Origin: Chloroflexota bacterium
GTDB lineage: Bacteria > Chloroflexota > Anaerolineae > Aggregatilineales > J027
Assembly (NCBI GenBank): GCA_024434115.1
Contig: QMIT01000004.1
Location: forward strand, 279,073 to 343,072
Reading direction: 5' to 3'
DNA length: 64,000 bases
The translations under genes were made by a program, and so were the position numbers. Under the pieces are notes generated by a model. That model saw only the letters and a program-made list of their open reading frames with translations, had not been told where the DNA came from and made no database searches. Numbering within the stretch: position 1 is the first letter of the stretch; each line of letters begins with the position of its first letter. This document shows positions 1 through 24,861 of the stretch, piece after piece.

Positions 1-625
1 TATACGGCCATGAGAGATTCCAATGGGTTTTGGATGGGACGGGCAGTTCCCACATCACTTTGGTCGCCAGCAGCACACCCTGTTCGTGATAGCTGGTTTC
101 GATAAAGGTACGGTGAAATTCCCGATGCCAATCTGGAGCGTTGCCCAACAACCACTCAAAATAGGTGAATAGTTGTAATTGGCGGGGTGTATTGCCTTCA
201 TTTTTCAGTCGCAGCACCCAAATTTCACAGGGATCATCTTCCGGCACAAAGTAGGTAACGGTGCTGGCGATACCCGCCTGCTGACCTTCAATAATGCTGT
301 AGCCCATGCCATGCCGTACCCGATAATCCTGCAACTTTTCGCCGCAGGGCTGAAAGGTTGGCGACCAAAATTCGCCGGAGGCCGCGTCCCGGATATACAA
401 ATATTTGCCCCATTCATCGCGGATTAAATCTTGATCCCAGCGGGTAATGCGATTGAGGCTGGCATGGGTGCGCCAGCTATACCCGCTGCCCGCCTGTGAG
501 ATGACAAAGCCGTAATCGCCGTTCGACAACACATTGACCCAAGGCATGGGTGTTTCGGCACAAGTGATTACATATTCAAGGCCGTCATCACTGAAATAGC
601 CATATTTGTTTGGCAGTTGGGTCAC
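1..625 (-). CDS. GH94-family glycoside phosphorylase, N-terminal part (cut by window edge)
   Basis: The reverse strand is open from a GTG at 625 to the window edge, giving about 208 residues. The product begins MTQLPNKYGYFSDDG and carries PWVNVLSNGDYGF, GSGYSW, NRITRW and LYIRDAASGEFWSPT. These match the N-terminal beta-sandwich of GH94 phosphorylases, including the C-terminal region of NdvB-type cyclic glucan synthases. Such enzymes cleave beta-glucosidic bonds with phosphate, usually in the cytosol, to give glucose 1-phosphate. I chose GTG because the nearby ATG (627-625) runs straight into TGA. An AGGAG lies just upstream, and the preceding gene stops only one base before this start, so the two are probably translationally coupled. 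Last gene seen of the leftward sugar operon. Linkage specificity cannot be read from this fragment; beta-1,2 is suggested only by the GH144-like neighbours, and cellobiose or cellodextrin remain possible. Confidence 0.82.
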   Translation of the reverse strand, partial: MTQLPNKYGYFSDDGLEYVITCAETPMPWVNVLSNGDYGFVISQAGSGYSWRTHASLNRITRWDQDLIRDEWGKYLYIRDAASGEFWSPTFQPCGEKLQDYRVRHGMGYSIIEGQQAGIASTVTYFVPEDDPCEIWVLRLKNEGNTPRQLQLFTYFEWLLGNAPDWHREFHRTFIETSYHEQGVLLATKVMWELPVPSKTHWNLSWPY

Positions 626-626
626 A

Positions 627-1259
627 TTATGCTCCTACAAAAGTTTCGTTTTTTAGAATATTACGCCGATATTTTGCCAAGTCATCGGCGGCACGGGCTT
701 GCAACGCTTTATCATTGGGAAACAGGTCGGGGATAGATTCATAAATATCTTCGGCATCGCGCAGTTGACCATCGGCCTCATAAAGCTCCCCCAGTCGAAG
801 ATAAATCATGCCAAGATAGGGGTTGGTACGTCCGATATTTTCTTGAACAAATTGTTCAGCGTCTTCAATCGTCAAGCGTTCATAGACAATCTCATGGATA
901 CGGTCTTTGGCACGTTGGACGCCATCAGGTACAGGATAGGAATAATCGTTTTCCCAAATGCGCTGCACCTGCATATAGCCGCCATATTCGACATATTTTT
1001 TCGCTTGGGTATCATATTTTTCATAACCCGTCAGCGCATCCAGATAGTTACCTGCCTCAAAGCTGGCATCGGCATCATCCAAATAATCTCCGGTTAGGCG
1101 ATAAGCATTCCACCACGCCAGCCCATAAGTGCCAATAAAGACCATAATCAGGCCAGCAAAGAGCAAGACCCAGCGATACCGTTTCAGCCAACTTTGGGCC
1201 GGTTTGACTTCAACGATGGTCTCGGCCAGTGGTTGTTGAGCAAGGGTTGATTGAGCCAT
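627..1259 (-). CDS. Membrane-anchored TPR-like protein of the sugar operon
   Basis: A 210-residue protein. A polar N-terminus of about 28 residues is followed by one hydrophobic segment (WVLLFAGLIMVFIGTYGLAWW), then a soluble helical part with paired-helix character (SFEAGNYLDALTGYEKY; YLGMIYLRLGELYEADGQLRDAEDIYES) resembling two or three TPR units. It lies between the permease gene (12 bases upstream) and the GH94 gene (one base downstream), so it belongs to the same transcript. A scaffold or assembly role with the importer is possible, but that is inference; I do not recognise a named family. Tetratricopeptide proteins are not standard parts of carbohydrate ABC systems. Confidence 0.75.
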   Translation of the reverse strand: MAQSTLAQQPLAETIVEVKPAQSWLKRYRWVLLFAGLIMVFIGTYGLAWWNAYRLTGDYLDDADASFEAGNYLDALTGYEKYDTQAKKYVEYGGYMQVQRIWENDYSYPVPDGVQRAKDRIHEIVYERLTIEDAEQFVQENIGRTNPYLGMIYLRLGELYEADGQLRDAEDIYESIPDLFPNDKALQARAADDLAKYRRNILKNETFVGA

Positions 1260-2108: not shown

Positions 2109-2115
2109 GCTCTCC

Positions 2116-3104: not shown

Positions 3105-3169
3105 GGATGGGCCACAGACCCATCCCTACAAATGAAAACAGCAAGGGCGATTATTTATCTATCGCCCTT
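3105..3169 (-). promoter_or_regulatory. Two intergenic hairpins between binding-protein and permease genes
   Basis: Two perfect stems lie between the binding-protein stop and the permease start. GGATGGG (3105-3111) pairs with CCCATCC (3119-3125), and AAGGGCGAT (3143-3151) pairs with ATCGCCCTT (3161-3169). On the minus strand neither is followed by a good T-run. They therefore look like partial-termination or mRNA-protecting structures that raise the binding protein above the permeases, a known arrangement in MalE-type operons. The expression effect is inferred. Confidence 0.6.
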
Positions 3170-3181
3170 TTTAGATTTGGA

Positions 3182-4480: not shown

Positions 4481-4567
4481 GGTATTTTTTTATCTCCTCA
4501 ACTCTTTAGCGGTCTTCAGTTAGGATAAACTGGGTAGTGTTTGCTCTAAATTCGACCTGCCTCCTTC

Positions 4568-4587
4568 TTGTAAAAGCGCTTTTACAA
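4568..4587. promoter_or_regulatory. LacI-type operator (perfect 20-bp palindrome)
   Basis: TTGTAAAAGCGCTTTTACAA is a perfect dyad with the central CG expected of LacI/GalR-family operators. It lies upstream of the leftward sugar-binding protein gene and shares the core TGTAAAAGCGCTTT with the site at 5789-5806. The adjacent LacI-family protein (4667-5680) is the likely ligand. Confidence 0.85.
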
Positions 4588-4602
4588 TAGGTGAAAATTT
4601 TT

Positions 4603-4620
4603 TGGGGAGCGCTTTCCCCA
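4603..4620. promoter_or_regulatory. Possible second, weaker LacI-type operator
   Basis: TGGGGA and TCCCCA flank GCGCTT, giving an imperfect palindrome that shares AGCGCTTT with the strong operator 16 bases away. It could be an auxiliary operator or a coincidental inverted repeat. Confidence 0.35.
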
Positions 4621-4628
4621 GATAATCC

Positions 4629-4652
4629 AACAAGGCGCTTAAAGGCCTTGTT
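4629..4652 (-). terminator. Hairpin after the LacI gene
   Basis: AACAAGGC (4629-4636) pairs perfectly with GCCTTGTT (4645-4652) just downstream of the minus-strand lacI-type gene. No run of T follows on that strand, so it is at best a weak terminator or a 3'-end stabiliser. Confidence 0.4.
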
Positions 4653-4666
4653 AGGGGCTTACAACA

Positions 4667-5680: not shown

Positions 5681-5702
5681 GATCTTCCTGCCCAACTTTT
5701 TG

Positions 5703-5716
5703 TTAAAACGTTTTTA
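5703..5716. promoter_or_regulatory. Candidate autoregulatory operator
   Basis: TTAAAACGTTTTTA, a near-palindrome with an AAACGTTT centre, lies about 25 bases upstream of the LacI-type gene start. It resembles LacI-family sites but differs from the AAGCGCTT core of the neighbouring operators. Confidence 0.4.
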
Positions 5717-5788
5717 TTCTAACAAGCGCCTCCAAAATGTGCAAATCGTTTTTTTAACTACCCTAATTTGGGGAATTTTCGACATTTT

Positions 5789-5829
5789 TGTAAAAGCGCT
5801 TTGACAGATTTTTTCTCCCGATTTATACT
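5789..5829 (+). promoter_or_regulatory. Promoter with overlapping LacI-type operator
   Basis: TTGACA at 5801-5806, a 17-base spacer and TATACT at 5824-5829 make a near-consensus sigma-70 promoter for the rightward hydrolase genes. The operator TGTAAAAGCGCTTTGACA (5789-5806) covers the -35 box, so bound repressor would block polymerase. The gene start is about 65 bases downstream. Confidence 0.8.
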
Positions 5830-5894
5830 CATCTTCAAAATAGATTTTTTCCCGCTAGATCAGCGGCAAGTCCTTAAAAGGAGCTAGAAGCTAT

Positions 5895-8800
5895 ATGTTA
5901 AAAAAGCTAGTACAGATTGTGCTGTGCGGGGTTATGATTGCCACACTTGCAATTAGCATCCATCCCCCCGTCTCTGTGGCACAGGATGACAGCGTTGTCT
6001 GGGCGGCGTGGGACGCCAAAGACGCTGCTGCCATTGGGGACGATAATTCTGGTTCCAGCGTGACCGTGACAGATGCGGTCACTACCCCGGCTGGTGCCCC
6101 AAGTTTGGAAGTCACCCCCAGCGGTACTTCCGAAGAAACTAAAATTGCAGTGCCGTTCACAGGTGCGGACATAGCCGATTTTGCGTCCTACACCACCCTA
6201 GCCATTGAAGTCTATTTGCCAGAAGGCAATGCTGTGAATCCCAACAGCTTTTTCTTGGGTATGGCCGATGTCGGTGGGGAATGGACATGGGTCGGTGGTA
6301 TTTTTGGCACGGCGGAGAGCCTAACCACTGGCTGGAATACCGTTGTATATCCGCTCGACCCCGCCATGCGTACCCCGGTAGCCGACCACAGCTATATGCT
6401 GTATATGTCGTTCTTTAGTGCCGACGAAGCAGGCAACAAGACCATCCTCACCGAACCCTTTAACCTCGGCAGTGCAACTCTGAGCGGTATGGCGGCGGCG
6501 GGTGGTGATGAAGGCGAAGGCACAACCACTGGCTCGGCTGAAGGCAGTTTGGCATGGGCAGCGTGGGACGCTAAAGACGTTGCCACGATTACGGATGACA
6601 ATTCTGGCTCAACCGTCGCCATCAGCGAAGACGTTCAGACCCCCGCTGGCACTCCCAGTTTGCAAGTGACCCCCAGCGGCACTTCTGAAGAGACCAAAGT
6701 CGCCATTCCTTTCACAGGTGCGGATTTGGCAGATTGGGCCGCTTACGATCAGGTCGTCATCGAAGTCTATCTGCCCGAAGGCAATGCTCTCAATCCCAAT
6801 AACTTCTTTATGGGTATGGCGGATGTCGGTGGTGAATGGACTTGGGTTGGTGGCATTTTTGGTGAAGCCGCTGAACTGACAACTGGCTGGAACAGCATTG
6901 TCTATAAGCCCGATAATGCCATGCGTGCCGCCGTCGCAGATCACAGCTATATGCTGTATATGTCGTTCTTTAGCGCTGATGAAGCAGGCAACAAAACCGT
7001 TCTGACCGAACCCTTCTATCTGGGTGGCGCGACGCTTGTTTCAAGTGCCGCTGTATCCCCCGCTGCCCCCGAAAGAATTCTGTGGACGGCATGGGAAACT
7101 AAGAACGCTGGCATGATCGGCCACGACAACACGGGTTCTTCATTTGCAGAAGGCAAAGACATCCTGACTGCGACAGGTATCTCCTCGTTACAGGTCATCC
7201 CCTCCGGTACGACGGAAGAAACCAAGCTGGCCTTTCCTGTCAGCGGTGCCAATCTGCAAACATGGTCGCTTGGCCGTGTTGAATTAGAAATCTACCTCTC
7301 CCCCACCAACGCCTTTAACCCCAATCAGGTGTTTATGGGTATGGCGGACATCACAGGTGAATGGGCATGGGTCGGTGGCGTTTGGGGCGTTTTTGAAGGC
7401 GACACCGAATGGGCCAAAGTTACTTTTGATCTTGACCCCAACATGCGGAAGCCTAACCCCAATGGCGCGTATTTCATCTACTTCGCCTTCATGTATGCCG
7501 ATGAAAACGGCAATAAGACCGTCCTGACCGAACCCTTCTATCTGGGCAGCATGTACGCTATGCCCGTCCCCGGTGAAGCCGACCAAACCCTGACTTGGGC
7601 ACCGTGGGAGAACAAGGATATTGCGATGTTGGGCGATGATAACAGTGGCTCGACCTTTGCAGTCAGCAGCGACGTATTAACTCCCGACGGCACTCCTTCG
7701 CTCCAAATCATGCCCAGTGGCGACGCCGCAGAGACCAAGCTGGCTTTCCCGATCACCGCAGCGGATTTGGCGGATTGGGTCACCTACACGCAGGTCGAAA
7801 TTGATGTCTATCTGCCCGAAGGTAATGCGATGAATCCCAACAAGTTTTTCATGGGTATGGGCGATACAACGGGCGAATGGGCATGGGTCGGCGGGATGTT
7901 CGGTGGTGCGCTCCAACTGACCACCGGGTGGAATCGCATTGTCTACGTGCCCCTTCAACCAATGCGGAACCCCAAAGAAGGTGGGACTTATGAGCTATAT
8001 CTGTCCTTCTTCTTTGAAGATGCCAGCGGCAAAGTTCCGCTCACTGAGCCAATCTATCTCGGCGGTGCTTATCTATCCGCCCCTGAAAAAGTAGCCGCGC
8101 CGGGTGAATATTCACAGGAAAGCGTCTATCAATCCGAGGTGGATTTGCTGCTCTCGTTTGATGATGTGGCCCTACTGGATTCCGTCGGCAGCGAGACCTT
8201 CAGCTTCTTCTGGGAGCAAGCCAATCCTGCCAACGGCCTTGTGAAAGACCGCAACACCGCTGATTCGCCCGCCAGTATCGCCTCGGTTGGTTTTGCGCTG
8301 GCTGGGATTCCGATTGCGGTGGATCGCGGCTGGATCAACTACAATCAAGGGTATGAACGCGCCCTTGTGACGCTGCAAACCTTCGCCAATGGTGGTGTGC
8401 AAGGCGATCACGGCTTCTTCTATCATTTTGTGGATATGGAAACCGGGGAGCGTGTGTGGAGCAGCGAAATTTCTTCGATTGACTCCGCCCTATTTATCGC
8501 TGGGGCGCTAACCGCCGGAGCGTATTTCAAAGATACCGAAGTCGCGGCCCTTGCCCAACAACTCTATGAAAACATGGATTGGGAATGGATGATGGCGGGC
8601 GGTAACATGGTCTCGATGGGTTGGAAACCAGACATTGGCTTCCTCTCCGCCACATGGGATCACTTTGATGAAAGCCTACTGCTCTATATCTTGGGCATTG
8701 GTTCACCCACCCACCCCATCCCCGCCGAGTCATGGGACAATTGGGATCGTCCGGTTAACCTACAGGGTGAATTCATCTACCTCGGTGCAGAACCCCTGTT

Positions 8801-9371
8801 TGTCTATCAATATCCGCTGGCCTTCTTTGACCTGCGTGGCAAAGAAGATGCCTACGCCAACTACTTTAATAACACCACCCGCGCCTGCGAACGCAGCATT
8901 CAGTTCGCCGCCGATAATGCCGATCCCTATGCCACTTATCAGGGCGGTATCTGGGGTATCAGCGCCTCCGATGGCCCGCGCGGTTACAAGGCCTATGGCG
9001 CGACGGGTGGCAACCACGACGGCACGATTGCCCCGTATGCCTCCATTGCCTGCTTGCCCTTCACCCCCGAAGCATCAATGGCGGCGATCCGGGCCATGCT
9101 GACCAAATGGGGTACGAAGGTATGGCGCGAACACGGCTTTGTCAGCGCGGTCAATGACGTAGACCAATGGTATTCAGTTGACCACATCGGCATTGATCAG
9201 GGCGACATCCTGCTGATGATTGCCAACTATCAGGATGGCTTTGTCTGGAATCTGCTGTCGCAAAACCCGAACATCCAAAATGCGATCAACGCGATGGGTT
9301 TTGTCGAAAGCACAGGTGACTATGCTGTAACCCCGGCTTATCTGGAAGCCTTTAAGAATGGGACGAACTAG
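5895..9371 (+). CDS. Secreted GH144-like glucanase with four tandem beta-sandwich modules
   Basis: An 1158-residue protein. The signal peptide covers residues 1-30 (MLKKLVQIVLCGVMIATLA, ending SVAQ). Four similar modules follow, at about 36-196, 219-381, 396-555 and 565-730. Each begins with a Trp-rich strand such as WAAWDAKD and contains GMADVGGEWTWVGG, and most end with TEPFYLG. From about 748 to 1150 is a Glycoamylase-type (PF10091) alpha/alpha-barrel with FSFFWEQANPANGLVKDR, YHFVDMETGERVWSSEISS, GIGSPTHPIP and GIWGISASDGPRGYKAYG. PF10091 includes GH144 endo-beta-1,2-glucanases and the middle domain of cyclic glucan synthases. It probably depolymerises beta-glucan outside the cell, with the modules binding polysaccharide. 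AGGAG lies 11 bases before the ATG, and the promoter-operator upstream implies LacI control. Substrate linkage and module function are inferred. Confidence 0.85.
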   Translation: MLKKLVQIVLCGVMIATLAISIHPPVSVAQDDSVVWAAWDAKDAAAIGDDNSGSSVTVTDAVTTPAGAPSLEVTPSGTSEETKIAVPFTGADIADFASYTTLAIEVYLPEGNAVNPNSFFLGMADVGGEWTWVGGIFGTAESLTTGWNTVVYPLDPAMRTPVADHSYMLYMSFFSADEAGNKTILTEPFNLGSATLSGMAAAGGDEGEGTTTGSAEGSLAWAAWDAKDVATITDDNSGSTVAISEDVQTPAGTPSLQVTPSGTSEETKVAIPFTGADLADWAAYDQVVIEVYLPEGNALNPNNFFMGMADVGGEWTWVGGIFGEAAELTTGWNSIVYKPDNAMRAAVADHSYMLYMSFFSADEAGNKTVLTEPFYLGGATLVSSAAVSPAAPERILWTAWETKNAGMIGHDNTGSSFAEGKDILTATGISSLQVIPSGTTEETKLAFPVSGANLQTWSLGRVELEIYLSPTNAFNPNQVFMGMADITGEWAWVGGVWGVFEGDTEWAKVTFDLDPNMRKPNPNGAYFIYFAFMYADENGNKTVLTEPFYLGSMYAMPVPGEADQTLTWAPWENKDIAMLGDDNSGSTFAVSSDVLTPDGTPSLQIMPSGDAAETKLAFPITAADLADWVTYTQVEIDVYLPEGNAMNPNKFFMGMGDTTGEWAWVGGMFGGALQLTTGWNRIVYVPLQPMRNPKEGGTYELYLSFFFEDASGKVPLTEPIYLGGAYLSAPEKVAAPGEYSQESVYQSEVDLLLSFDDVALLDSVGSETFSFFWEQANPANGLVKDRNTADSPASIASVGFALAGIPIAVDRGWINYNQGYERALVTLQTFANGGVQGDHGFFYHFVDMETGERVWSSEISSIDSALFIAGALTAGAYFKDTEVAALAQQLYENMDWEWMMAGGNMVSMGWKPDIGFLSATWDHFDESLLLYILGIGSPTHPIPAESWDNWDRPVNLQGEFIYLGAEPLFVYQYPLAFFDLRGKEDAYANYFNNTTRACERSIQFAADNADPYATYQGGIWGISASDGPRGYKAYGATGGNHDGTIAPYASIACLPFTPEASMAAIRAMLTKWGTKVWREHGFVSAVNDVDQWYSVDHIGIDQGDILLMIANYQDGFVWNLLSQNPNIQNAINAMGFVESTGDYAVTPAYLEAFKNGTN
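6000..8085 (+). repeat. Four tandem copies of a ~160-residue module inside the glucanase gene
   Basis: The units span about 6000-6482, 6549-7035, 7080-7560 and 7588-8085. Units 1 and 2 remain very similar at nucleotide level, for instance a shared stretch containing CACAGCTATATGCTGTATAT near 6388 and again near 6943. That implies a recent duplication, while units 3 and 4 have diverged further. Confidence 0.85.
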
Positions 9372-9431
9372 GTTAAACCGTCGCGTTCTATTTCCGTTCC
9401 CTGTGATGGGAACCGGGGGCTAAAACCAATG

Positions 9432-9470
9432 GGGGTGGTCAATAAAATAGGCCACCCCTCTTTATTTGCG
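9432..9470 (+). terminator. Possible terminator after the secreted glucanase
   Basis: GGGGTGG (9432-9438) pairs with CCACCCC (9452-9458), followed by TCTTTATTT. The stem is short and the loop long, so read-through to the GH1 gene is likely. Confidence 0.45.
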
Positions 9471-9493
9471 ATAGTAATAAAGGGTTGTTGCTT

Positions 9494-10816
9494 ATGACTT
9501 TTCCGAAAGATTTTTTATGGGGGGCAGCCACCTCCAGCTATCAAATTGAAGGGGCATGGAACGCTGACGGGCGCGGCGAAACGGTCTGGGATCGTTTTTG
9601 CCATACCGTCCCCAGCAAAGTTGCCAACCACGATTCCGGAGATATGGCCTGTGACCATTATCATCGCTACCGGGATGATGTGGCCTTGATGCGTCAAATA
9701 GAGTTACAGGCCTATCGTTTTTCGGTGGCATGGTCGCGGGTATTGCCAGCAGGAATTGGCCCAGTTAACCAAAAGGGTCTCGATTTTTACAGTCGTTTGG
9801 TAGATGAACTTTTGGCGTCGGGCATCCAACCCTACTTAACCCTCTATCATTGGGACACGCCCCAAGCCCTACAAGATCGAGGCGGTTGGGCCAATCCCGA
9901 TAGCGTGCAGTGGTTCGCCGACTACACCGACATCATAACGCGCTGTTTAGGAGACCGTGTGCAAAACTGGACGACCCACAACGAGCCGTGGATTGTCGCA
10001 TTTGTCGGCTATTTTTATGGTGGACACCCACCGGGCATGACCGATCTGACCACCGCCTATCAGGTGGCCCATCATTTATTGCTGGCACATGGCGCAGCGT
10101 CACCCATCATCCGCCAGAATGTATCCAATTCACGATTGGGTATCTCGCTCAATCTCAATCCGATTTACCCCGGCGCACCGGAAACTGAGCATCTATCAGC
10201 CGCCTATCGCCAAGATGGATTCCTGAATCGCTGGATGCTTGATCCGCTGTTTAAGGGTGTTTATCCCGCCGATATGGTTTCGCTGGTCAAACCCTACCTG
10301 CCCCCCATTGACCTGACCACCATTCAATCAGCCGCCGTGCCGCTCGACTTTTTGGGGGTGAATTATTACCTCCGCAACGTGGTACTGCACGACGACAACG
10401 AACTGCCGCTGCGCCTGCGCCATATCATGCCGGAAGATGCCCAAAAGACAGCACTGGGGTGGGAAATCTTCCCGGAAGGCTTAACGGCCCTCTTGGTACG
10501 CTTACAACAAGATTACGCCCCCGCCGCGATCTATATCACCGAAAACGGCTCGGCTTTTGAGGATACCGTTGCCACTGACGGTACAGTACATGACCCGCAG
10601 CGCATCGCTTATTTTGAATCGCACCTCGCCGCCCTTGAACAAGCTATTGAGCAGGGAGTAACCGTCAAAGGCTATTTTGCGTGGAGTTTGATGGATAACT
10701 TTGAATGGTCACATGGCTATGATAAGCGATTTGGCTTGATTTATGTGGATTACACCACCCAGAAACGCACCCTTAAACAAAGCGCGTTGTACTATCGGGA
10801 TAAGATTCGAGGCTAA
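9494..10816 (+). CDS. GH1 beta-glucosidase
   Basis: A 440-residue family 1 glycoside hydrolase, typical length, with no signal peptide (starts MTFPKDFLWGAATSSYQIEG). The acid/base motif THNEP places Glu at residue 164, and the nucleophile motif YITENGS places Glu at residue 350. GYFAWSLMDNFEWSHGYDKR near the end is the usual aglycone-site region. It removes terminal glucose from imported beta-gluco-oligosaccharides in the cytosol. I use the ATG at 9494, with AAAGGG nine bases upstream, over a TTG at 9485. It lies between two GH144-like genes and ends three bases before the next start codon, so it is co-transcribed with the downstream one. GH1 enzymes may also accept beta-galactosides or beta-fucosides. 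Confidence 0.95.
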   Translation: MTFPKDFLWGAATSSYQIEGAWNADGRGETVWDRFCHTVPSKVANHDSGDMACDHYHRYRDDVALMRQIELQAYRFSVAWSRVLPAGIGPVNQKGLDFYSRLVDELLASGIQPYLTLYHWDTPQALQDRGGWANPDSVQWFADYTDIITRCLGDRVQNWTTHNEPWIVAFVGYFYGGHPPGMTDLTTAYQVAHHLLLAHGAASPIIRQNVSNSRLGISLNLNPIYPGAPETEHLSAAYRQDGFLNRWMLDPLFKGVYPADMVSLVKPYLPPIDLTTIQSAAVPLDFLGVNYYLRNVVLHDDNELPLRLRHIMPEDAQKTALGWEIFPEGLTALLVRLQQDYAPAAIYITENGSAFEDTVATDGTVHDPQRIAYFESHLAALEQAIEQGVTVKGYFAWSLMDNFEWSHGYDKRFGLIYVDYTTQKRTLKQSALYYRDKIRG

Positions 10817-10819
10817 CCT

Positions 10820-12922
10820 ATGCAAGACACGATCTATGACCACTTGATTTTTGATAACAGCCGCACACCCGACGCCTACTTTTTTAGCCATGTCACGTTT
10901 TCGGGGGATAGTACGATACACCATGTTAATCACCACCTGCCCGTGAGCCATGCCCATTTTTTCACCCCACCCAACAGCCTCGAACTGACGTGGTGTTCCA
11001 AAGCAGGTGGTCATTGGCAGGCCGAAATTTTGGTCGAGTATTGGCGGGGACGAACGACTGCCCTCAAAGGGGATACACTTTCGTTTTGGTGCTACACTCC
11101 CACGCCCATTCCCCCGGAATCACTGCCGCTGGTGTGGCTGGAAGTGCGCGGCGAGATTCGGCCCTTTTTCCATTTGCGATTGGCCGTTAAAGATTTGCCT
11201 GTCCGACAGTGGACGTATATTCAAATTCCACTCAGCGCCCATTTTGACCTAACCTTTAAGCAGAAAGATGGGCCGGAAATCACCAAAGTTATTTTTTCGC
11301 AGGGCAGCCTCAGCGATGAAACCTATACCCTCTACCTTGATGACATCAAGCTTAACAACGTCCCTCAGAGTCAACCCGTCAAACCACCTACGGGGGTTTC
11401 TGCCATCGTGTGTGACCGCCATGTGGAATTGACATGGGACAAAATCACTGACCCCGCCGTGCAGTATGTCCAAATTGAACGGGCCGAAAAAGGGCAAGAT
11501 TTTCAACCTGTTGGCATTCAGTATCCACACTATTCGCGGTTTGTGGATTACATCGGCTTGCCCCATCGCACCGTCACCTATCGCCTAACTGCCGTCAACC
11601 ATTCCTATCAAGCATCAAAGCCGACACCGCCCATCGAAGCCATCACCCGCCCCATGACGGATGATGAATTGCTGACGATGGTTCAAGAAGCGCATTTTCG
11701 CTGCTACTGGGATCATGCCCATCCCGACGCAGGCTTGGCACTGGAATGTATCCCCGGCGACCCCGATATGATTGCATTGGGGGCATCCGGTTTTGGCCTC
11801 ATGGCGTTAATCGTGGGGGCAGAGCGCGGATTCATCAGCCGGGCTGAATTGACCCAGCATATCCAAAAAGTGCTGCGGTTTTTGAGCACAGCGGATCGGT
11901 TTCATGGGGTCTGGCCGCATTTTCTGGATGGGCGCACTGGCAAGACCGTCCCATTTTTTGGCGATCACGATGACGGTGGGGATTTGGTCGAAACCGCCTT
12001 TATTATGCAGGCGCTTTTGACCCTGCGCCAATATTTTGACCGCCCCACGCCAGACGAAGAGCAAATCCGTGCCACCATCACCCATCTCTGGGAAACCACC
12101 GAATGGGATTGGTATCGCTTCCCCGATGACCCCAATTTTTTGATTTGGCATTGGTCGCCCAAACACGGCTGGCTGATTAATCACCCCCTCATTGGCTGGA
12201 ATGAGGTCATGATTGTCTATCTGCTGGCGATTGCCTCTCCAACCCATCCCGTCCCCGCCGAGATGTTTCATAAGGGGTGGGCCTCCCAAAACGAACGTGC
12301 CCAACAATACCGCAGTGGGTGGGGACAAACAACAGAGGGCAGTCTCTATACCAACGGCACAGAATATTACGGTATCGAGCTTCCGGTAGGCGTTGGGTCA
12401 GGTGGGCCGCTATTTTTTACCCATTACTCGTTTTTGGGTTTCGACCCACGCCACAAACGGGATCGCTATGCCAATTATTTCGACAACAACCGCCGCATCA
12501 GTCTAATTAACTATCGGCACTGTGTCGCCAATCCGGGGGGCTTCGTCGGTTATGGCGAAAATTTCTGGGGGCTGACCGCCAGTGACGATCATACGGGTTA
12601 TGTGCCACACGATCCCCAAAATGACAACGGTACGATTACACCCACTGGGGCACTCGCGGCTTTTCCCTATACCCCCACTGAATCCATGCAGGGCCTCAAG
12701 CATTTTTATTTTGCTCGTGGGGCGGAGCTTTGGGATATTTACGGTTTCCGGGATGCCTGTAACCCCACCGTCGGCTATGTCTCCAATATTTTTATGGGGC
12801 TGAATCAAGCGCCGATTGTGGGCATGATCGAAAATCATCGCACGGGGCTATTGTGGCGGCTGTTTATGTCCAATCCCGAAATTCAGGCGATGTTGGACAA
12901 AATTGGATTTGTACCGGATTAA
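10820..12922 (+). CDS. Second GH144-like (PF10091) enzyme, no signal peptide
   Basis: A 700-residue protein in three parts. Residues 1-180 form a carbohydrate-binding-like beta-sandwich ([10 protein letters not shown] at its end). About 190-275 is a fibronectin-III-like domain ([28 protein letters not shown]). About 275-695 is a Glycoamylase/PF10091 catalytic domain ([44 protein letters not shown]). The C-terminal domain aligns with that of the secreted enzyme encoded two genes upstream. No export signal is visible, so it may trim imported oligosaccharides or leave by another route. Start codon ATG follows the GH1 stop by three bases, with CGAGG upstream. The beta-1,2 specificity is a family-based guess. 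Confidence 0.82.
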
Positions 12923-16518: not shown

Positions 16519-16553
16519 CCTCCTTCCAGTTATTGGTTTCAACGGTTTTCTCT

Positions 16554-18113
16554 ATGAACAAAAAAAATGCCTTTTCTGTGACTCCTTCAACCATCACCCG
16601 CCTAGCACTGGTGGGGGTGTTTGATGTGGCGGTGCTGTCGCTCATCCGCCAATTATTGGATGACGGCAACTATCCACTTTCCGGCATTCTCGGTGTGGTG
16701 ATCGTCATTATTACCCTCTGTTTTTCGCTGGAAAAATTGCGGTACTATCGCTGGTTAGGGGTTAGCCTTGCCGCGACCACCCTTTTTGTCCTCTACCCGA
16801 TTCTATATACCATCTACCTCTCCACCACCAACGCAGGTTATGGGCATATCCTCACCAAGCAGGAAGCGGTGGATTTCTTGGAGAGCCAGCAGTACGTTCC
16901 TGAATCGGGTCAGCAGTATAAATGGACGGCCTATCGCTCCCTTGAATCCACTGATGATTACGTGCTGTGGTTGCAGGCGGAAGACGACACCACTTTTCTC
17001 ACTGGCATAGGGACTGCGACCAAACCCGCCAGCATCGGGGACGACGGGATAGGGTCTGCCGATGACAAAGGCATTCCGACCAGCATTCAAGGCTATCAGC
17101 GTCTTGAAAAGCGCGATACGGTTGCCATGATTGATCAACTGGGCGAACTTAAATTTGGCGTCGCCCCCGATATTATCCGCATAACTAGCCTTACGGTTGC
17201 CGCCGCCACCCAACAGCGGTATCGCTACCATTCCGACAGCGATACACTCACCGATGCCGAAACGGGCCTTGTCTATCACCCTGACGAAGGCGTTTTTACC
17301 ACCGATGATGGTCAAGAACTGCCCCCCGGTTTTAGGGTCGGGGTCGGGCTGGATAATTTCGAGCGCTTTTTCTCAAGTTCGGCGCTGCGTGGGCCGCTGG
17401 TGCGTATTATCTCATGGAACTTTGCCTATGCCATTTTGAGCGTGTTATGCAGTTTTGCGCTTGGCCTGTTTATCGCGGTTTTGTTCGAAACCCTGCCCGG
17501 CAGACAAATTATCCGTGCCCTGCTGATTATCCCCTATCCCATTCCAGCACTGGTTTCGATTCTCATCTGGCGCAATCTGCTTAATCCAGACTTTGGCGCA
17601 CTCGTCAGCCTACAAAACTCTATTTTTGGCACCGCCCCTAACTGGCTCACCGACCCGAAATGGACACGCATCGCCATTATCATTATCAATATGTGGCTCT
17701 CCTACCCCTATTTCTATATTGTCTCCAGTGGCGCATTACAAGCCATTCCCACCGATATGATGGACGCGGCGGCGGTGGACGGGGCAAACGCATGGCAGCG
17801 CTTTTCCAAGATTACACTGCCCTTGCTGCTGAAGATTGTCAGCCCCTTGTTGGTGGCGTCTTTTGCTTTTAACTTTAACAACTTCAATCTGATATACATC
17901 TTCAATCAGGGCAATCCACCCATCGCTGGGTCACCGATTCCAGCCGGTCACACCGATATTTTGATCTCATTTGTCTATCGCCTTGCTTTCAATTCGGCCA
18001 TAAGCGATTACGGCTTAGGGGCCAGCATCTCGATTGTATTGTTCCTCTTTATCGCGGCGATCACATGGGGTCAGTTCCGTTACACGCGCGTTTTGGAGGA
18101 TCAAACCGTATGA
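16554..18113 (+). CDS. Sugar ABC permease, full MalF type with periplasmic loop
   Basis: About 519 residues, close to the length of E. coli MalF. Early membrane helices (residues about 15-85) are followed by a large extracytoplasmic insertion (about 90-270, rich in charged residues, comparable to the MalF P2 loop) and then the permease core with helices such as ILSVLCSFALGLFIAVLFE. The EAA loop reads MDAAAVDGANAWQRFSKITL. It forms the channel with the MalG protein encoded next. ATG at 16554 is used; a TTG at 16533 is an alternative, and neither has a clear ribosome site. The stop TGA overlaps the next ATG. Confidence 0.93.
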   Translation: MNKKNAFSVTPSTITRLALVGVFDVAVLSLIRQLLDDGNYPLSGILGVVIVIITLCFSLEKLRYYRWLGVSLAATTLFVLYPILYTIYLSTTNAGYGHILTKQEAVDFLESQQYVPESGQQYKWTAYRSLESTDDYVLWLQAEDDTTFLTGIGTATKPASIGDDGIGSADDKGIPTSIQGYQRLEKRDTVAMIDQLGELKFGVAPDIIRITSLTVAAATQQRYRYHSDSDTLTDAETGLVYHPDEGVFTTDDGQELPPGFRVGVGLDNFERFFSSSALRGPLVRIISWNFAYAILSVLCSFALGLFIAVLFETLPGRQIIRALLIIPYPIPALVSILIWRNLLNPDFGALVSLQNSIFGTAPNWLTDPKWTRIAIIIINMWLSYPYFYIVSSGALQAIPTDMMDAAAVDGANAWQRFSKITLPLLLKIVSPLLVASFAFNFNNFNLIYIFNQGNPPIAGSPIPAGHTDILISFVYRLAFNSAISDYGLGASISIVLFLFIAAITWGQFRYTRVLEDQTV

Positions 18114-19036
18114 CCGACATCCAAACACATTCCACGCCAATACCCACGACCAGCTACAAAAAACCCAATTTCTCGCTGAATTATCAGCAGCGACGTTGGC
18201 TAGGATATATCATCCGTTACATCATCGCGGCGATTTTGATTGTGTTCGCCTTTGTACCCGTCGTATGGGTACTGTCAGCCTCGCTGAATCCATCGGGGTC
18301 GTTGGTCTCGATAGAAGTGATCCCCAAAAACCCCGGCCTCGGTAATTATCGTGGTCTGTTTGAGAACAGATACTATCCATACCTGACGTGGCTCAAAAAT
18401 TCGTTTGTAGTGGCCTCCATCTCGACATTTTTGAGTGTTAGTAGCACCACCGTTTCCGCCTATGGCCTAGCGCGTTTTCGCTTTTATGGGCGCAAAACCT
18501 TGATGCGGGCCATTTTGATTATCAGTATTTTCCCAGCGGCTCTCTCGATTATCGCGCTGTATACCACCTTTCAACAGGTTGGCAACCATATCGGTATCTT
18601 GGGCCTCAATTCCCATGCCTCACTGATTTTGATTTATGCGTCGGGGGCACTCAGTATCAACGTGTTTTTGGTAAAGGGCTATATAGATTCCATTCCGCTC
18701 GAAATTGAGGAATCAGCACTGGTGGATGGTGCGACCCATGCCCAAATTTTCCGCATGATTACCCTGCCCCTTGCCAAGCCAATTTTGATTACCATCTCGG
18801 TGCTGACTTTCATGGCGATTTATGGCGATTTTGTGCTGCCACGTGTCTTAATGCAAAGCTCCGACAAATATACGGTAATGGTCGGCCTCTATTTGTTCCA
18901 GTCAGCGGACTACGCCCAAAACTGGGGTGTTTTTACGGCGGGGGCAGTCATCGCAGCCCTACCGATTCTTGGACTCTATATGCTGCTCCAACGCTACATT
19001 ATTGGTGGCCTGACCGCAGGCGCAGTCAAACTTTAG
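18110..19036 (+). CDS. Sugar ABC permease, MalG type
   Basis: A 308-residue permease with six helices (IIAAILIVFAFVPVVWVLSA and later). The EAA motif reads EESALVDGATHAQIFRMITL. The start ATG overlaps the preceding stop as ATGA, with GGAGG upstream, so translation is coupled to the MalF subunit. The 45 bases of open frame before it are excluded. No ATPase gene is present, so a shared ATPase is expected elsewhere in the genome. Confidence 0.93.
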   Translation: MTDIQTHSTPIPTTSYKKPNFSLNYQQRRWLGYIIRYIIAAILIVFAFVPVVWVLSASLNPSGSLVSIEVIPKNPGLGNYRGLFENRYYPYLTWLKNSFVVASISTFLSVSSTTVSAYGLARFRFYGRKTLMRAILIISIFPAALSIIALYTTFQQVGNHIGILGLNSHASLILIYASGALSINVFLVKGYIDSIPLEIEESALVDGATHAQIFRMITLPLAKPILITISVLTFMAIYGDFVLPRVLMQSSDKYTVMVGLYLFQSADYAQNWGVFTAGAVIAALPILGLYMLLQRYIIGGLTAGAVKL

Positions 19037-19103
19037 GTCAAGACTTTTGGAGAATATTCGGCGGGCTGACCGCTGGCATAACAAACGCTAGGTTAGGCAA
19101 CTC

Positions 19104-21128
19104 ATGAAACTTTTTGAAAAACTGTGGCACGGGGCCGATTATAACTATGAGCAGTGGCTCGACAGCCCGGACATTCTGGCCGAAGATTTCCGGCTGATGC
19201 GCTTGACCCATTCCAATGTCATGAGTATCGGTATTTTTGCATGGTCAATGCTCGAACCCACCGAAGACCACTATACTTTTGATTGGCTCGATCAATTGGT
19301 GGACAGCCTTGCCGAAAACGGCCTTAGCGCGATTTTAGCCACTCCCAGCGCCGCTCCACCCGCATGGTTATCGCAAAAATATCCTGAAACCCGCCGCGTC
19401 AATGAGCATGGTATTCGTCAGCCCCACCGCCGCCGCCAGAACTTTTGTTATTCCTCGCCCGTCTATCGAGAAAAAATCGTCGCCCTCAATACCCGTCTTG
19501 CCGAACGTTATCAACACCATCCTGCCCTTGTGCTGTGGCATGTATCCAATGAATATGTGGCGACCCAGTGTCATTGCGATTTGTGTTATCACAGTTTTCG
19601 AGCATGGCTGCAACGGCGCTATAGTGATTTGGATACACTAAATCGGGCATGGTGGTCAACCTTTTGGAGCCATCGTTATACCGATTGGTCACAAATCGAA
19701 CCGGTTGACCCTTCTATGCACAGCCTGATGTTGGATTGGCAGCGCTTTACCAGCGACCAAGCCCTAGAATTTTTCCTTGCCGAATCCGCTCCCCTGCGTC
19801 AGATTACCCCCGACATTCCCATCACAACCAATTTTATGCAACCGGATGTCGGCCTCAATTATTGGAATTTCGCCCCGCATGTGGATGTGGCGTGTTGGGA
19901 CAGCTATCCCCGTTGGCATCAAACCGATGACCTGCAAACTGCTATGCAGACGGCCTTTTATCACGATCTGCACCGCTCCTATAAACAGGGGCAGCCCTTT
20001 TTGTTGATGGAATCCACGCCGAGTGTCACCAATTGGCAGGGCATCAGTCGGCTGAAAAAACCGGGGATGCACAAACTATCCTCGTTGCAGGCCGTCGCAC
20101 ATGGAGCCAACAGTGTTCAATATTTTCAGTGGCGGCAAAGTCGAGGTGGCGAGGAGAAATTTCATGGGGCGGTGGTCAGCCATCTGGCTTCAACCGATAC
20201 TCGTGTATTTCAGGATGTGCAAGCCCTCGGTAACCTATTGGAAAAGCTGATCCCTGTCACCGAAACAACCATCCAAGCACCTGTCGCCCTGATCTATGAT
20301 TTTGAAAACGAATGGGCTTTGAATCATGCCCAACTTCCGCGCAGCATTGGCAAAAACTATCAGGAAACCTGCCGACAGCATTATCGTCCATTCTGGCAGC
20401 AGGGTATCGCGGTGGACATTATCAACACTCAGGCCGATTTCAGCGCTTATCGGCTGGTCATTGCCCCGATGTTATATATGCTCCCTCCCGGTATGGCCGA
20501 ACGTATTGAAGCCTATGTCAAAGCCGGGGGAACATTCGTGACGACCTATCTATCGGGTTTGGTCAATCAATCTGACCTAGTTTTTTTGAATGGCTACCCA
20601 CCCCCTCTACGTCGTACACTAGGGTTGTATTCTGAAGAAATGGATACCCTAACCGACCATCAGTTAGGACAACTGCGGGCCAGCCCTGAAAACCCTCTCA
20701 ATCTGCATGGGGATTATGAATTCCATCATTACGCCGAACTCGTTCATGCTGAAACGGCCCAAGTCCTAGCGACCTATCACTCTGAATTTTATGCAGGTTA
20801 TCCTGTATTAACCGCTAATGCCTATGGCAGCGGCCAAGCCTACTTCATCGCCGCCCGTACCGAAAATCGTTTCTTAATTGATTTTTATACCCAACTCGCC
20901 GAGTGTATGGGTATAGAAAATCCGCTGCACCAACCGCTGCCCGCTGGACTCTCCATGCAGGTACGCTCGGATGAAAGCCAGCGATTCGCGTTTATCATGA
21001 ACTTCACCGACCATGCCATTCCAATGGAAATCGGGCAGGGGTGGCAGGACTCGTTGACAGGGTTGCCATCCGCATCTTCGATTACCGTACCACCGTATGA
21101 TGTAGTGATCGTGGGACAAGCCTTATGA
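19104..21128 (+). CDS. GH42 beta-galactosidase
   Basis: A 674-residue family 42 enzyme, typical length, with no signal peptide. The N-terminal LWHGADYNYEQW is characteristic. The acid/base motif WHVSNEYV places Glu at 150, and LLMESTPSVTNWQ gives the nucleophile Glu303. CHCDLC (after the acid/base residue) matches the zinc-cluster cysteines of many GH42 enzymes. A trimerisation-type domain (about 390-590) and a small C-terminal beta domain (ending YDVVIVG) follow. It releases galactose from galacto-oligosaccharides in the cytosol. Its stop overlaps the start of the secreted GH53 gene (ATGA). Confidence 0.95.
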   Translation: MKLFEKLWHGADYNYEQWLDSPDILAEDFRLMRLTHSNVMSIGIFAWSMLEPTEDHYTFDWLDQLVDSLAENGLSAILATPSAAPPAWLSQKYPETRRVNEHGIRQPHRRRQNFCYSSPVYREKIVALNTRLAERYQHHPALVLWHVSNEYVATQCHCDLCYHSFRAWLQRRYSDLDTLNRAWWSTFWSHRYTDWSQIEPVDPSMHSLMLDWQRFTSDQALEFFLAESAPLRQITPDIPITTNFMQPDVGLNYWNFAPHVDVACWDSYPRWHQTDDLQTAMQTAFYHDLHRSYKQGQPFLLMESTPSVTNWQGISRLKKPGMHKLSSLQAVAHGANSVQYFQWRQSRGGEEKFHGAVVSHLASTDTRVFQDVQALGNLLEKLIPVTETTIQAPVALIYDFENEWALNHAQLPRSIGKNYQETCRQHYRPFWQQGIAVDIINTQADFSAYRLVIAPMLYMLPPGMAERIEAYVKAGGTFVTTYLSGLVNQSDLVFLNGYPPPLRRTLGLYSEEMDTLTDHQLGQLRASPENPLNLHGDYEFHHYAELVHAETAQVLATYHSEFYAGYPVLTANAYGSGQAYFIAARTENRFLIDFYTQLAECMGIENPLHQPLPAGLSMQVRSDESQRFAFIMNFTDHAIPMEIGQGWQDSLTGLPSASSITVPPYDVVIVGQAL

Positions 21129-22564
21129 AAAAAATATGTCAGATTTTCCTCACTGCCTTTGTCCTATCGGCTGTTTGGGCACCCCGTCCCGGTTTGGCAG
21201 ACACAAATCCACCCCAATACTATCTAGGGGTTGATCTGTCCTACGTCAACGAGATGGAGGACTGCGGCGCGGTGTACCAAGTGGATGGCGAGCCGCATGA
21301 CCCCTATCAGATTTTTTATGACTATGGCGCCAATTTGGTGCGGATTCGGCTGTGGCATACCCCCACATGGACAGATTACAGCACCTTTGACGATGTGGTA
21401 CGTTCGCTGCAACGCGCCAATGCGCTTGGCATGAACGTTCTGCTGGATTTTCATTATTCTGATACGTGGGCCGACCCCAACCACCAGACCATTCCAGCGG
21501 CATGGGCCGGAATCACGGATGTGAACGAATTGGGTCAGGCGCTCTATCAATATACCTATGACACCCTGATGCAGTTGGATGTGTTTGGTCTCATGCCAGA
21601 AATGGTGCAGGTGGGTAATGAAATCAACACCGAAATTTTACGGGCCGAAGATGCCGCTGGTTATCCAATTGATTGGGATCGAAATGCCCTGCTGATTAAT
21701 CGTGCCATTCAAGCGGTGCGTGATGCGGATGCCCAATCCGCCGAAACGCCGCGTGTCCTGTTGCACGTTGCCAAACCGGAAGCCGTCGAGGGCTGGTTAT
21801 TGGCCGCGACCAGTGCAGGGGTAACGGATTATGACATCATCGGGATTTCGTATTACCCCGGATGGTCAACCCACACTGTCACCACTGTTGGCAATGTCAT
21901 CAGTCAACTGCGCTATAAATTTGGCAAAGAGGTCATGATCGTCGAGACGGCCTATCCTTGGACATTGGAGGCCGCTCCCGATGCTTCCAACATCCTCGGC
22001 ATAGATTTCCTCGCTCCTGATTACCCCGCCACTCCAGAGGGCCAAAAACAGTTCTTGACCGATCTAGCCCAAGCCGTTTTTGCCAATGGCGGGCTGGGCA
22101 TCGTCTATTGGGAGCCAGCGTGGGTCTCTACCTCCTGTCGGACGCTCTGGGGTCAGGGATCGCACTGGGAAAACGCCACCTTCTTCGATTTTCAAAATGG
22201 TAAAGAGATTTTGGAGGGTATCGAATTCCTTCAACACTCCTATCAATATCCGGTCAATATCACCCTGCAATTCAAGTTCGCGGATGAATCCCTACCAGAC
22301 AAGATTTTCTTTTGGGGGGATTTCACCGGGCTTGGCAAGCGTCCGATGATGCTGCCGCTGGTAAATGGCGCGTACACTTTTGAAGCGCGTCTGATGCCGG
22401 GGACGGAAATTCACTACCAGTTTTATGGTGTGACTCCCGCCTCACCGGAAAATGCCCTGCTTTCGGCAGACTGTATGGACGAAGAAGGCCATGTTACCCT
22501 CACTATCCCCAATGAGGACGACCTGATCGAGCATACAACGGAGGCGTGCCCCGTCATTCCCTAA
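21125..22564 (+). CDS. Secreted GH53 endo-beta-1,4-galactanase with C-terminal extension
   Basis: A 479-residue protein. A signal peptide (MKKICQIFLTAFVLSAVWA, cleavage near GLA) precedes a GH53 domain (about 35-385) with LGVDLSYVNEMEDCGAV, the acid/base motif VGNEINTEI and the nucleophile motif IVETAYPW. The C-terminal 95 residues (from about VNITLQFKF) form a beta-rich extension with GDFTGLGKRPMMLPL and a cysteine near each end, resembling small starch-binding or carbohydrate-binding-like folds; its role is unknown. It should cut galactan outside the cell to feed the importer. Last gene of the galactan operon, followed by a terminator. Confidence 0.92.
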   Translation: MKKICQIFLTAFVLSAVWAPRPGLADTNPPQYYLGVDLSYVNEMEDCGAVYQVDGEPHDPYQIFYDYGANLVRIRLWHTPTWTDYSTFDDVVRSLQRANALGMNVLLDFHYSDTWADPNHQTIPAAWAGITDVNELGQALYQYTYDTLMQLDVFGLMPEMVQVGNEINTEILRAEDAAGYPIDWDRNALLINRAIQAVRDADAQSAETPRVLLHVAKPEAVEGWLLAATSAGVTDYDIIGISYYPGWSTHTVTTVGNVISQLRYKFGKEVMIVETAYPWTLEAAPDASNILGIDFLAPDYPATPEGQKQFLTDLAQAVFANGGLGIVYWEPAWVSTSCRTLWGQGSHWENATFFDFQNGKEILEGIEFLQHSYQYPVNITLQFKFADESLPDKIFFWGDFTGLGKRPMMLPLVNGAYTFEARLMPGTEIHYQFYGVTPASPENALLSADCMDEEGHVTLTIPNEDDLIEHTTEACPVIP

Positions 22565-22596: not shown

Positions 22597-22642
22597 GTTC
22601 ACCGCTTACAGCAGTTTTTCTGCCCGAGGGGGTGAACGTTTT
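22597..22642 (+). terminator. Terminator between convergent genes
   Basis: GTTCACC (22597-22603) pairs with GGTGAAC (22631-22637), with an inner GCAG-TTTTT-CTGC hairpin, followed by GTTTTTATTGTTT. It ends the galactan operon. Confidence 0.6.
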
Positions 22643-24861
22643 TATTGTTTTAGACTGGCGAAGTAGTCAAGCAGCATTCGGTGTACGAAGATATAACCAC
22701 CGCCAACCTTGCGCAAAAGAAATAGTTCTCTAGCCGCATAGTCCAAAAAATGAGCATAATTAGGAGGGATTGCGCCATCCCGATGAAGGACAAAACGCAG
22801 GACAGCATGGCGAATAATTGACCTAATCCCATAGGAAAGGGCTAGAAAAATCCCAAAACCTAAGCCGGAGATAATGCCAACCGCAATACCAGACCCAAGA
22901 TTTAGGATGAGGCCAATCACCACCAGACTGATGAGGCCAATCGAGAGAGCGACCATAACACCTGCCCGTAGCGCATTCCAGAAACTGATTCTTAAGCCTT
23001 GATTTGGGCGGCTCCGCATTTCGAGGCGTTCCGCGGATTTTAGGCCTGCCTCCATAAACCCGACTGTGCCAGCGGCGACAGCTACCATACTCCCCATTGT
23101 CAGTGTTCCCATTAGCCATGCTACAACCGCAATCGAAGTCCCAATAAATAGGGCGTTGATTAGTCCCCATCTAATGTCTTCTTTTGTCCAACGAAAATTG
23201 ATAGTATCCCCCACTTCGATCTCCATCATTTTGACGGGCAATCCAGTAGTAATACCCAAAAAGACGAAGATTGATAATCCTACAACTACCCCATAGAGGA
23301 GACCATCGGTGATATTAGCTGCCAGTGAGTAAATAATTCCCGTTAAAACTCCGTAAGACAATCCGAAAACCGATCCATAGGTCAATCCTACAGCCACTTT
23401 GACTGCGATACGATGCAAATGCTGCTGGCTTGAAGTCTCTAACCAATAGGGCTGCATGGATTCGATATAAAAAATGGTTTGTTGGCGCTCTACCATCTTG
23501 CCTGCCAGAAAACTAAGATAGTGGCGGGTCTCTCGCGGGGTATAGTCTCCATGACCAGAGCCTGTTTTCAAGCGCTGTTTAATATAGCTATCAAAAAGAT
23601 GATTGCGCCGTGCCGCTTCGTTATTTTCATTGACGGGCAGAACAAGATTGACGCTTGATGCCTTGCGATAGGAGAACGCGATGGTATTAAGCAGAAAAGG
23701 GATACTTGCCATTTCGCGTAAAACAGCATCTCGTTCCAAAAACACACGCAGATCAGCGAAATCTTCACCCTGAAGATAACCCTCAATCTGATGATGTGTC
23801 AGGGGTTGGAGCATGATGGCACTTTCCAAATCGAGTTTATGCGCCAACAGGTTGTAATCAGCCGTCCGACTGCAAACCACCATATCTACGGCCTGATATT
23901 CGCGCCGAAAATCGTTAATGGCTTCAACACAGGCATCCCGATAAACATCCATCACCTCGTCAAGGCCATCCAAAAGCATAAGCAGTTGTTCGCCCTCAAC
24001 CCAATTCACAGCAACTTTCTTGGGCACTTGGTAGCGGGTACGTAACTCCTCTTTCAGCCATTCTGTCAGCGGTTTGCGTTCGACGGCCCACGAGGACAAA
24101 TTAAATACCGCCGGGATAGGCTGTTTCTCATCCACTTTGGCTTGCTGGATAAGCTCCCGCGCCAACTGCAACAGCAAAACGGTTTTCCCACTGCCGGGAA
24201 CACCTAAGATGAGCAGTTCACGATTCATGTCTCGGAACAAATCCATTATATTGGTGCTGCTCGGCAGTTTATAATCGCCATAATCTTTGTGTTTTAAAAC
24301 GGCTTCTGGACTAATGGCTAGACCGAGATCGAACGCCCGATCTTCATGCAGAGCTTTTTCCAAGACGCCCGTGACCCAAAAGCTGTGAACCTTCTCCAAC
24401 ATCCGCTCACGATTACCCGCAGCAAGTCGGGTGGGCGCAAAATCAACAAGCGATTCTGAATGCTTCGGTGCGAAGGATTTTTGGTAAGGCGTAAGCAGCG
24501 TTTCCCGCAATTCGCCAAATCCTTTTTGCTCGTCACGGGTGAAATCAATATATTGCAGCCCGGCAAGGTGATAGGGCAATTGGGCATCCTGATATTTGAT
24601 TAACAGCAGACGTCTTTGAGGGTTATTTAAGGCATAGTCCCATTCAGCCATCACTTCACGGGAGTCAATGGCTTCCGGTGTAACGACCCCGATAATAACC
24701 TGCGCGGTCTCCAATCCCTTTTGGATTTCATGGCGAAAATAGGCCCCGCGCGGAATATTGTCTTCATCAAGCCAAGTCCGGTGTCCCCAGTTTTGTAGGT
24801 GATCCCGTAGTTTTCGAGCAAAAGGGCGATATTCGCTTTTATAACTAATAAAGACTTCCAT
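22642..24861 (-). CDS. TIR-NACHT protein with C-terminal membrane domain
   Basis: A 739-residue protein. Residues 1-130 are a TIR domain (MEVFISYKSEYRPFARKL; TWLDEDNIPRG), with Glu73 in MAEWDYAL at the position of the catalytic glutamate of NAD-cleaving TIRs. A NACHT STAND ATPase follows, with Walker A GVPGSGKT (220-227), Walker B LLMLLDGLDEV (near 300) and CSRTADYN. About 480-690 contains several Gly-rich hydrophobic helices (GSVFGLSYGVLTGIIYSL and others), then a terminal GGGYIFVHRMLLDYFA motif seen in other NACHT proteins. TIR and NACHT parts should be cytosolic and membrane-tethered. The architecture matches immune-type or stress switches of bacteria; no partner gene is adjacent. No clear ribosome site precedes the ATG. 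Confidence 0.88.
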   Translation of the reverse strand: MEVFISYKSEYRPFARKLRDHLQNWGHRTWLDEDNIPRGAYFRHEIQKGLETAQVIIGVVTPEAIDSREVMAEWDYALNNPQRRLLLIKYQDAQLPYHLAGLQYIDFTRDEQKGFGELRETLLTPYQKSFAPKHSESLVDFAPTRLAAGNRERMLEKVHSFWVTGVLEKALHEDRAFDLGLAISPEAVLKHKDYGDYKLPSSTNIMDLFRDMNRELLILGVPGSGKTVLLLQLARELIQQAKVDEKQPIPAVFNLSSWAVERKPLTEWLKEELRTRYQVPKKVAVNWVEGEQLLMLLDGLDEVMDVYRDACVEAINDFRREYQAVDMVVCSRTADYNLLAHKLDLESAIMLQPLTHHQIEGYLQGEDFADLRVFLERDAVLREMASIPFLLNTIAFSYRKASSVNLVLPVNENNEAARRNHLFDSYIKQRLKTGSGHGDYTPRETRHYLSFLAGKMVERQQTIFYIESMQPYWLETSSQQHLHRIAVKVAVGLTYGSVFGLSYGVLTGIIYSLAANITDGLLYGVVVGLSIFVFLGITTGLPVKMMEIEVGDTINFRWTKEDIRWGLINALFIGTSIAVVAWLMGTLTMGSMVAVAAGTVGFMEAGLKSAERLEMRSRPNQGLRISFWNALRAGVMVALSIGLISLVVIGLILNLGSGIAVGIISGLGFGIFLALSYGIRSIIRHAVLRFVLHRDGAIPPNYAHFLDYAARELFLLRKVGGGYIFVHRMLLDYFASLKQ

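Follow-up and report, generated by a model that had tools for sequence, protein, structure and literature searches.

A gene on the minus strand of the window (the whole stretch of 64,000 nucleotides that was analysed, from a Chloroflexota bacterium), at positions 22642..24861, encodes a protein of 739 amino acids with an ATG start, in which a TIR domain and a NACHT domain are followed by a winged-helix domain (WHD) that is interrupted by six transmembrane helices. On the basis of the open reading frame, Pfam profiles and an AlphaFold2 model, this TIR-NACHT architecture with a membrane-split winged helix is assigned with high confidence. As a TIR-NACHT protein, it is related to the immune receptors of animals and plants. 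It belongs to the bacterial NACHT/STAND proteins, a kind already known, of which the variant with a membrane-split winged helix is, judging by the literature covered, undescribed. In that literature, no account was found of a NACHT winged helix that contains a block of several membrane helices; this is weak evidence of novelty because subscription papers lie mostly outside the coverage. An earlier note on this DNA had given exactly the same reading frame, with the strand left out.

The TIR domain (residues 1-120, 24502..24861) is matched by Pfam TIR_2 at residues 3-118 (E=3e-26) and the nucleotide-binding domain by Pfam NACHT at residues 216-363 (E=1.9e-8), both above the Pfam cut-offs, in agreement with the TIR domain containing Glu73 and the NACHT domain with two Walker motifs that the earlier note had described. 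The closest folds to the TIR domain are those of TRR-2, SPARTA and the SARM1 TIR (VIA Z 15-19, 113-127 residues). E73 (24643..24645) lies within SREVMAEWDYA and does not vary among the nine sequences of alignment A2 that bear a TIR domain; its catalytic role may be assumed by analogy with TIR NADases, and the TIR fold together with this conserved glutamate makes the protein a candidate NADase. SPARTA, SARM1 and AbTir share the fold and the glutamate in the expected helix, whereas the candidate NADase of the window is coupled to a membrane-split NACHT switch. A linker with a helix at 145-172 (residues 121-205, 24247..24501; AlphaFold2 model, low confidence at 128-142) leads to the NACHT domain and helical domain 1 (HD1; residues 206-440, 23542..24246), which are supported by Pfam NACHT and by alignment with NOD2, NLRP3 and NLRC4. 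The Walker A motif GVPGSGKT (residues 220-227, 24181..24204; G220, G225 and K226 invariant in 34 sequences) follows the pattern GxxGxGK[T/S], and the Walker B motif LLMLLDGLDEV (residues 293-303, 23953..23985; D298 and D301 invariant in the same 34 sequences) follows hhhhDGLDE, which, together with a profile match over the curated cut-off, are the features of NACHT-clade STAND NTPases. A PDB sequence search with the single protein as query gave no match, and a PDB search with the family profile returned P-loops only.

The position of the membrane block (residues 477-694, 22780..23433) inside the WHD was derived from the AlphaFold2 model, fold alignments and a profile from which the block had been deleted. 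The first half of the winged helix comprises residues 441-476 (23434..23541) and the second half residues 695-739 (22645..22779), which end in YIFVHRMLLDYFASLKQ. In VIA-align, model residues 142..739 correspond to rabbit NOD2 194..595 (Z 16.1, 329 residues), 144..739 to NLRC4 95..457 (Z 16.0, 331 residues) and 148..739 to NLRP3 134..534 (Z about 15, 321 residues). These structures cover the nucleotide-binding domain (NBD), HD1 and both flanks of the membrane block and stop at the C-terminus of the window protein, and the end positions of the aligned NOD2, NLRC4 and NLRP3 chains lie within their WHD. In a sequence-only insertion test, positions 160-319 of the block-deleted family profile matched residues 419-568 of L007, a soluble NACHT protein of the same genome, contiguously across the junction (i-E 1.3e-4). 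The fold alignments and this contiguity therefore place the block inside the winged helix. The soluble proteins L001, L005 and L007 possess the same NACHT domain and winged-helix motif as the window protein and differ in a WHD that is free of a membrane block and in the 280-360 residues that extend beyond the histidine motif, whereas 12 residues follow the corresponding H727 in the window protein and 11-83 in 33 relatives. Such short tails leave no room for a C-terminal sensor domain after the WHD in these 34 sequences, so that nothing occupies the classical sensor position and the tripartite organization of NLRs is absent. The claim that the membrane domain fills the C-terminal sensor position is thus contradicted by the window protein and all 33 relatives. 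The terminal motif YIFVHRMLLDYFA, which forms the last residues of the protein and is present as previously described, is, according to alignment and model, the second half of the winged helix with the predicted ADP-locking histidine rather than a decoration of the membrane domain. The cyanobacterial relatives L042 and L044 carry a zinc ribbon after the winged helix, in their last 30 residues, which is the only clear C-terminal addition seen. The window genome contains 12 NACHT-profile matches (contigs C1, C2, C5, C8, C9, C14, C16 and C21), several of them in frames of 900-1700 codons.

In NLRs, a WHD histidine touches the ADP beta-phosphate and keeps the closed state, and the NLRC4 His443Leu variant is constitutively active (PMC7583971); in NLRP3, this residue is His522, which is accompanied by an Arg351-Glu527 pair (PMC10121800). 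The distances to the aligned ends are identical (739-727 = 534-522 = 12), which puts H727 (22681..22683) on NLRP3 His522, and a histidine occupies this position in 34/34 sequences. H727 may accordingly be regarded as the putative equivalent of the ADP-locking WHD histidine on the basis of the alignment. Arg332 (sensor 1) is likewise found in 34/34 sequences and an acidic residue at position 732 in 32/34, and R332 and D732 probably form a salt bridge in the closed state. The WHD with a conserved histidine is a further feature of NACHT-clade STAND NTPases, with the ADP contact predicted from the alignment.

The AlphaFold2 model, which was calculated from a 20-sequence alignment (mean pLDDT 75, pTM 0.64) and, like the other structure predictions, excludes the loci reached by genome search, contains six helices in the membrane block (477-514, 517-539, 560-583, 587-604, 621-652 and 658-694) that form three hairpins. 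The pLDDT of the block is mostly 57-75, corresponding to medium confidence, and the same six helices were obtained when the block was folded alone; a simple hydropathy scan of the window protein gave five clear segments, compared with six helices in the model. Lysine and arginine residues number 3, 5 and 4 after TM2, TM4 and TM6, on the cytosolic side, and 0 in all three opposite loops, which are a few residues long, and this pattern indicates that both ends of the block are cytosolic. Several hydrophobic helices that keep the positive-inside rule characterize a polytopic membrane protein, and the multi-helix hydrophobic region of the earlier note, for which a topology prediction had been suggested, is confirmed by them. 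Chance hydrophobicity was ruled out by the positive-inside pattern, the even number of helices and the occurrence of a membrane block in 34/34 sequences. In the model, TM1 and TM6 continue unbroken from the two winged-helix halves. H685, L688 and R689 are nearly invariant in the 34 sequences and lie directly after TM6 in the same continuous helix; this H..LR motif and the PNQG motif (P619, N620 and G622) of the cytosolic loop 605-628 (22978..23049) are strongly conserved in the alignment. Hairpins 1 and 3 resemble each other with a similarity score of 76 (maximum of 53 in 300 shuffles), and the inserts of the relatives are 110-445 residues long and have between 3 and 11 predicted helices, which together suggest that the block probably grew by hairpin duplication. 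With the block alone as query, Foldseek gave no match with E under 0.001, and the best VIA match (Z 7.0, a nucleoporin) is within the chance range for helical bundles. A match of the block to DUF4199 (E 0.004, far below the family cut-off) was not accepted as real.

Based on these features, a possible mechanism can be proposed in which the protein is a membrane-anchored NLR-like switch that is unlocked by a disturbance of the membrane or of a membrane protein and then fires the TIR NADase, a function to which we assign about an even chance. In the resting state, the NACHT domain would hold ADP in a closed conformation locked by H727 and probably by the R332-D732 salt bridge. The two halves of the winged helix would be joined through the six membrane helices, with the lock-bearing half on the end of TM6 and TM1 leaving the other half. 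A phage membrane protein such as a holin, injection, or the loss of membrane integrity or potential may disturb the membrane block, upon which the winged-helix halves could shift, H727 could move off the nucleotide and ADP could be exchanged for ATP. The ATP-bound protein may then oligomerize and bring the TIR domains together, and the resulting cleavage of NAD+ could stop the cell. In this scheme, TM1-TM4 would probably set the recognition target, and the PNQG loop, TM5-TM6 and the winged-helix halves could transmit the signal. That the membrane block acts as the sensor is slightly favoured, and an anti-phage outcome through the TIR NADase is evenly balanced; the anti-phage function itself is suggested by analogy with the family.

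Nucleotide comparison over 12.5 kb of the window with L035, L036 and L038 showed about 90% identity throughout, except at 23101-23400, where the identity to L036 and L038 falls to 67-70%; this is the only sustained coding dip in the 12.5 kb. The best segment, codons 481-590 (23092..23421), corresponds to TM1-TM4 and shows a nucleotide identity of 0.68-0.70 inside versus 0.92 outside, with a log-likelihood ratio of 56-63 (maximum of 10.4 in 30 shuffles). It separates two divergent alleles, one in the window and L035 and the other in L036 and L038, and within each pair the conservation of the segment equals or exceeds that of the remaining gene; the window and L035 are 0.989 identical in the segment versus 0.925 elsewhere in the gene, which hints that a second exchange took place recently. 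The dS of the membrane region is about threefold that of NACHT with dN/dS near 0.12, and dN/dS inside the cassette is about 0.11-0.13, giving no sign of positive selection, so that an old divergent allele imported by recombination is indicated rather than fast adaptive change. Hairpins 1 and 2 alone are exchanged, and the PNQG loop, TM5-TM6 and both winged-helix halves are left untouched. This pattern is as expected of a recognition module, and with four genomes and two alleles it could also stem from one recombination event, so it cannot prove such a role. The sensor claim of the earlier note accordingly stands in part: the block is the only candidate sensor and TM1-TM4 the sole exchanged part, but the block lies inside the WHD and not in the sensor position. 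Alternatively, the block could be an anchor only, which concentrates the switch at the membrane, in which case the trigger would be a soluble partner or some other protein that acts on NACHT. No part of the core is less conserved than the block (16-17% identity to the query in TM1-TM4), and the number of predicted helices varies widely between relatives, as an anchor would allow; however, one would expect an anchor at a terminus of the protein rather than within the nucleotide-locking domain, and the unbroken helices from the winged-helix halves into TM1 and TM6, the strong conservation of the PNQG loop and H..LR motif and the limitation of allele exchange to TM1-TM4 make this alternative unlikely.

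Relatives were searched with core residues 150-738, and the NACHT-membrane-WHD core was found in the 33 relatives compared, with varying N-termini, which answers the homologue search that had been suggested before. At E below 1e-20, core relatives occur in 13/201 sampled genomes of the phylum and in 23/298 of the class, and they are also found in many cyanobacteria; 64 plasmid records have a match, part of them by one domain only. The N-terminus preceding the core is a TIR, Ser/Thr kinase, guanylate cyclase, HTH, EAD10 or CHAT domain, or nothing recognisable. A maximum-likelihood tree of the NACHT part requires at least nine changes of the N-terminal label, where the label "other/none" lumps unscored domains. 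Even on starred branches, the TIR-bearing rows require a minimum of two gains or losses. Swapped N-termini on one core are typical of conflict systems, in which a core takes exchangeable effectors. L048 and L049 (Phormidium), L040, L041 and L043 are guanylate-cyclase- and Ser/Thr-kinase-NACHT-membrane proteins, which combine the same switch with nucleotide or phosphorylation outputs. In L062 (IMGVR_UViG_3300045107_000167; 320-2260 on the plus strand and 2738-5815 on the minus strand), a 38% identical NACHT-membrane relative adjoins a tail-fibre gene with an endosialidase chaperone, and this virus-like setting suggests that the core may ride on prophages. In L066 (NZ_CP040294.1, Nostoc plasmid p057_M, 1125-4755), a CHAT-NACHT-membrane protein immediately follows a trypco2 gene, and the plasmid is mobilisable.

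In L054, L034 and L014, only 3-25 residues precede the position of residue 150 of the query, so that something else must act there, and in relatives without a recognisable N-terminal effector the membrane block itself might act. Membrane perforation is a common effector strategy, and the block could thus form a pore or depolarize the membrane upon oligomerization, with the TIR domain as a second weapon or a signal. Against such an effector role stand the short outer loops, the few charged helix residues to line a pore and the retention of an N-terminal signalling or enzyme domain in many relatives, and we consider it quite improbable that the block is the effector rather than the switch-coupled sensor.

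The gene is present in 5/5 genomes of the genus and shows a dN/dS of about 0.08-0.10 against its three closest relatives, which are syntenic with the window. One flank encodes sugar ABC transport, GH42 and GH53, and the other a metal P-type ATPase, a glycosyltransferase, a GNAT acetyltransferase and a histidine kinase; at 16533-22564, two ABC permeases followed by a GH42 beta-galactosidase and a GH53 endogalactanase form a galactan-use cluster. PADLOC found no defence system among these ordinary neighbours and no whole defence model for the gene, with partial TIR or P-loop matches only, so the gene stands alone outside any defence island, as had been noted before. Searching a phage collection gave no match, and promoter and terminator predictions were no better than those in shuffled sequence. 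In the L037 region (573-11620), a 75% identical homologue has a type I restriction HsdM, a WD40 protein and two vWA/beta-propeller proteins nearby, which is a setting unlike that of the window. The lack of a defence island and the synteny in four genomes also fit a house signalling role, and the protein could serve regulation or envelope-stress signalling instead of defence, with the TIR domain making a signal or serving as an adaptor. The genus-wide occurrence in a constant housekeeping setting and the kinase, cyclase and HTH domains of relatives speak for such a role, whereas related cores on plasmids beside mobilisation genes (one beside the trypco2 gene) and on the virus-like contig next to the tail-fibre gene, the homologue close to HsdM and a TIR-NACHT core better suited to abortive defence than to routine regulation render it an improbable account of the gene.

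The bNACHT proteins resemble the window protein in a NACHT NTPase core, a single gene and an N-terminal effector position, and bNACHT25 and bNACHT32 have NCH1 as their C-terminal domain and a nuclease as effector (PMC12169576). The window protein, in contrast, has no C-terminal domain, a TIR effector and a winged helix that contains six transmembrane helices. Human NLRs (NLRC4, NOD2 and NLRP3) share the NBD-HD1-WHD order, Walker A and B, the sensor-1 arginine and the WHD histidine at the matching place; in them, HD2 and leucine-rich repeats come after an uninterrupted WHD, whereas the WHD of the window protein is interrupted by the membrane block with nothing after it. STAND/NACHT sensors diversified by DGRs include some with TIR effectors and some with transmembrane regions (PMC10907252). 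They differ in a hypermutated C-type lectin sensor, which the window protein lacks, the variation being located in its membrane helices.

Known NLRs sense through a domain attached at the end of the switch. In the window protein, the one candidate for a sensor lies within the switch itself and in the membrane, with the lock histidine on its far side, and relatives with other N-terminal domains are widespread in Chloroflexota and cyanobacteria. It is conceivable, with a probability somewhat short of even, that these proteins form a widespread undescribed NLR-like class with the winged helix threaded through the membrane, in which bilayer or intramembrane contacts hold or release the ADP lock, TM1-TM4 are a recognition cassette that can be exchanged and the N-terminus is a weapon that can be exchanged likewise. 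If so, this would be an NLR with a direct mechanical link to the membrane that it reads, and a reusable core would be added to the parts list of bacterial immunity. It would also offer a compact system in which helix swaps between natural alleles could address a question of long standing, namely how the WHD lock is opened by a trigger.
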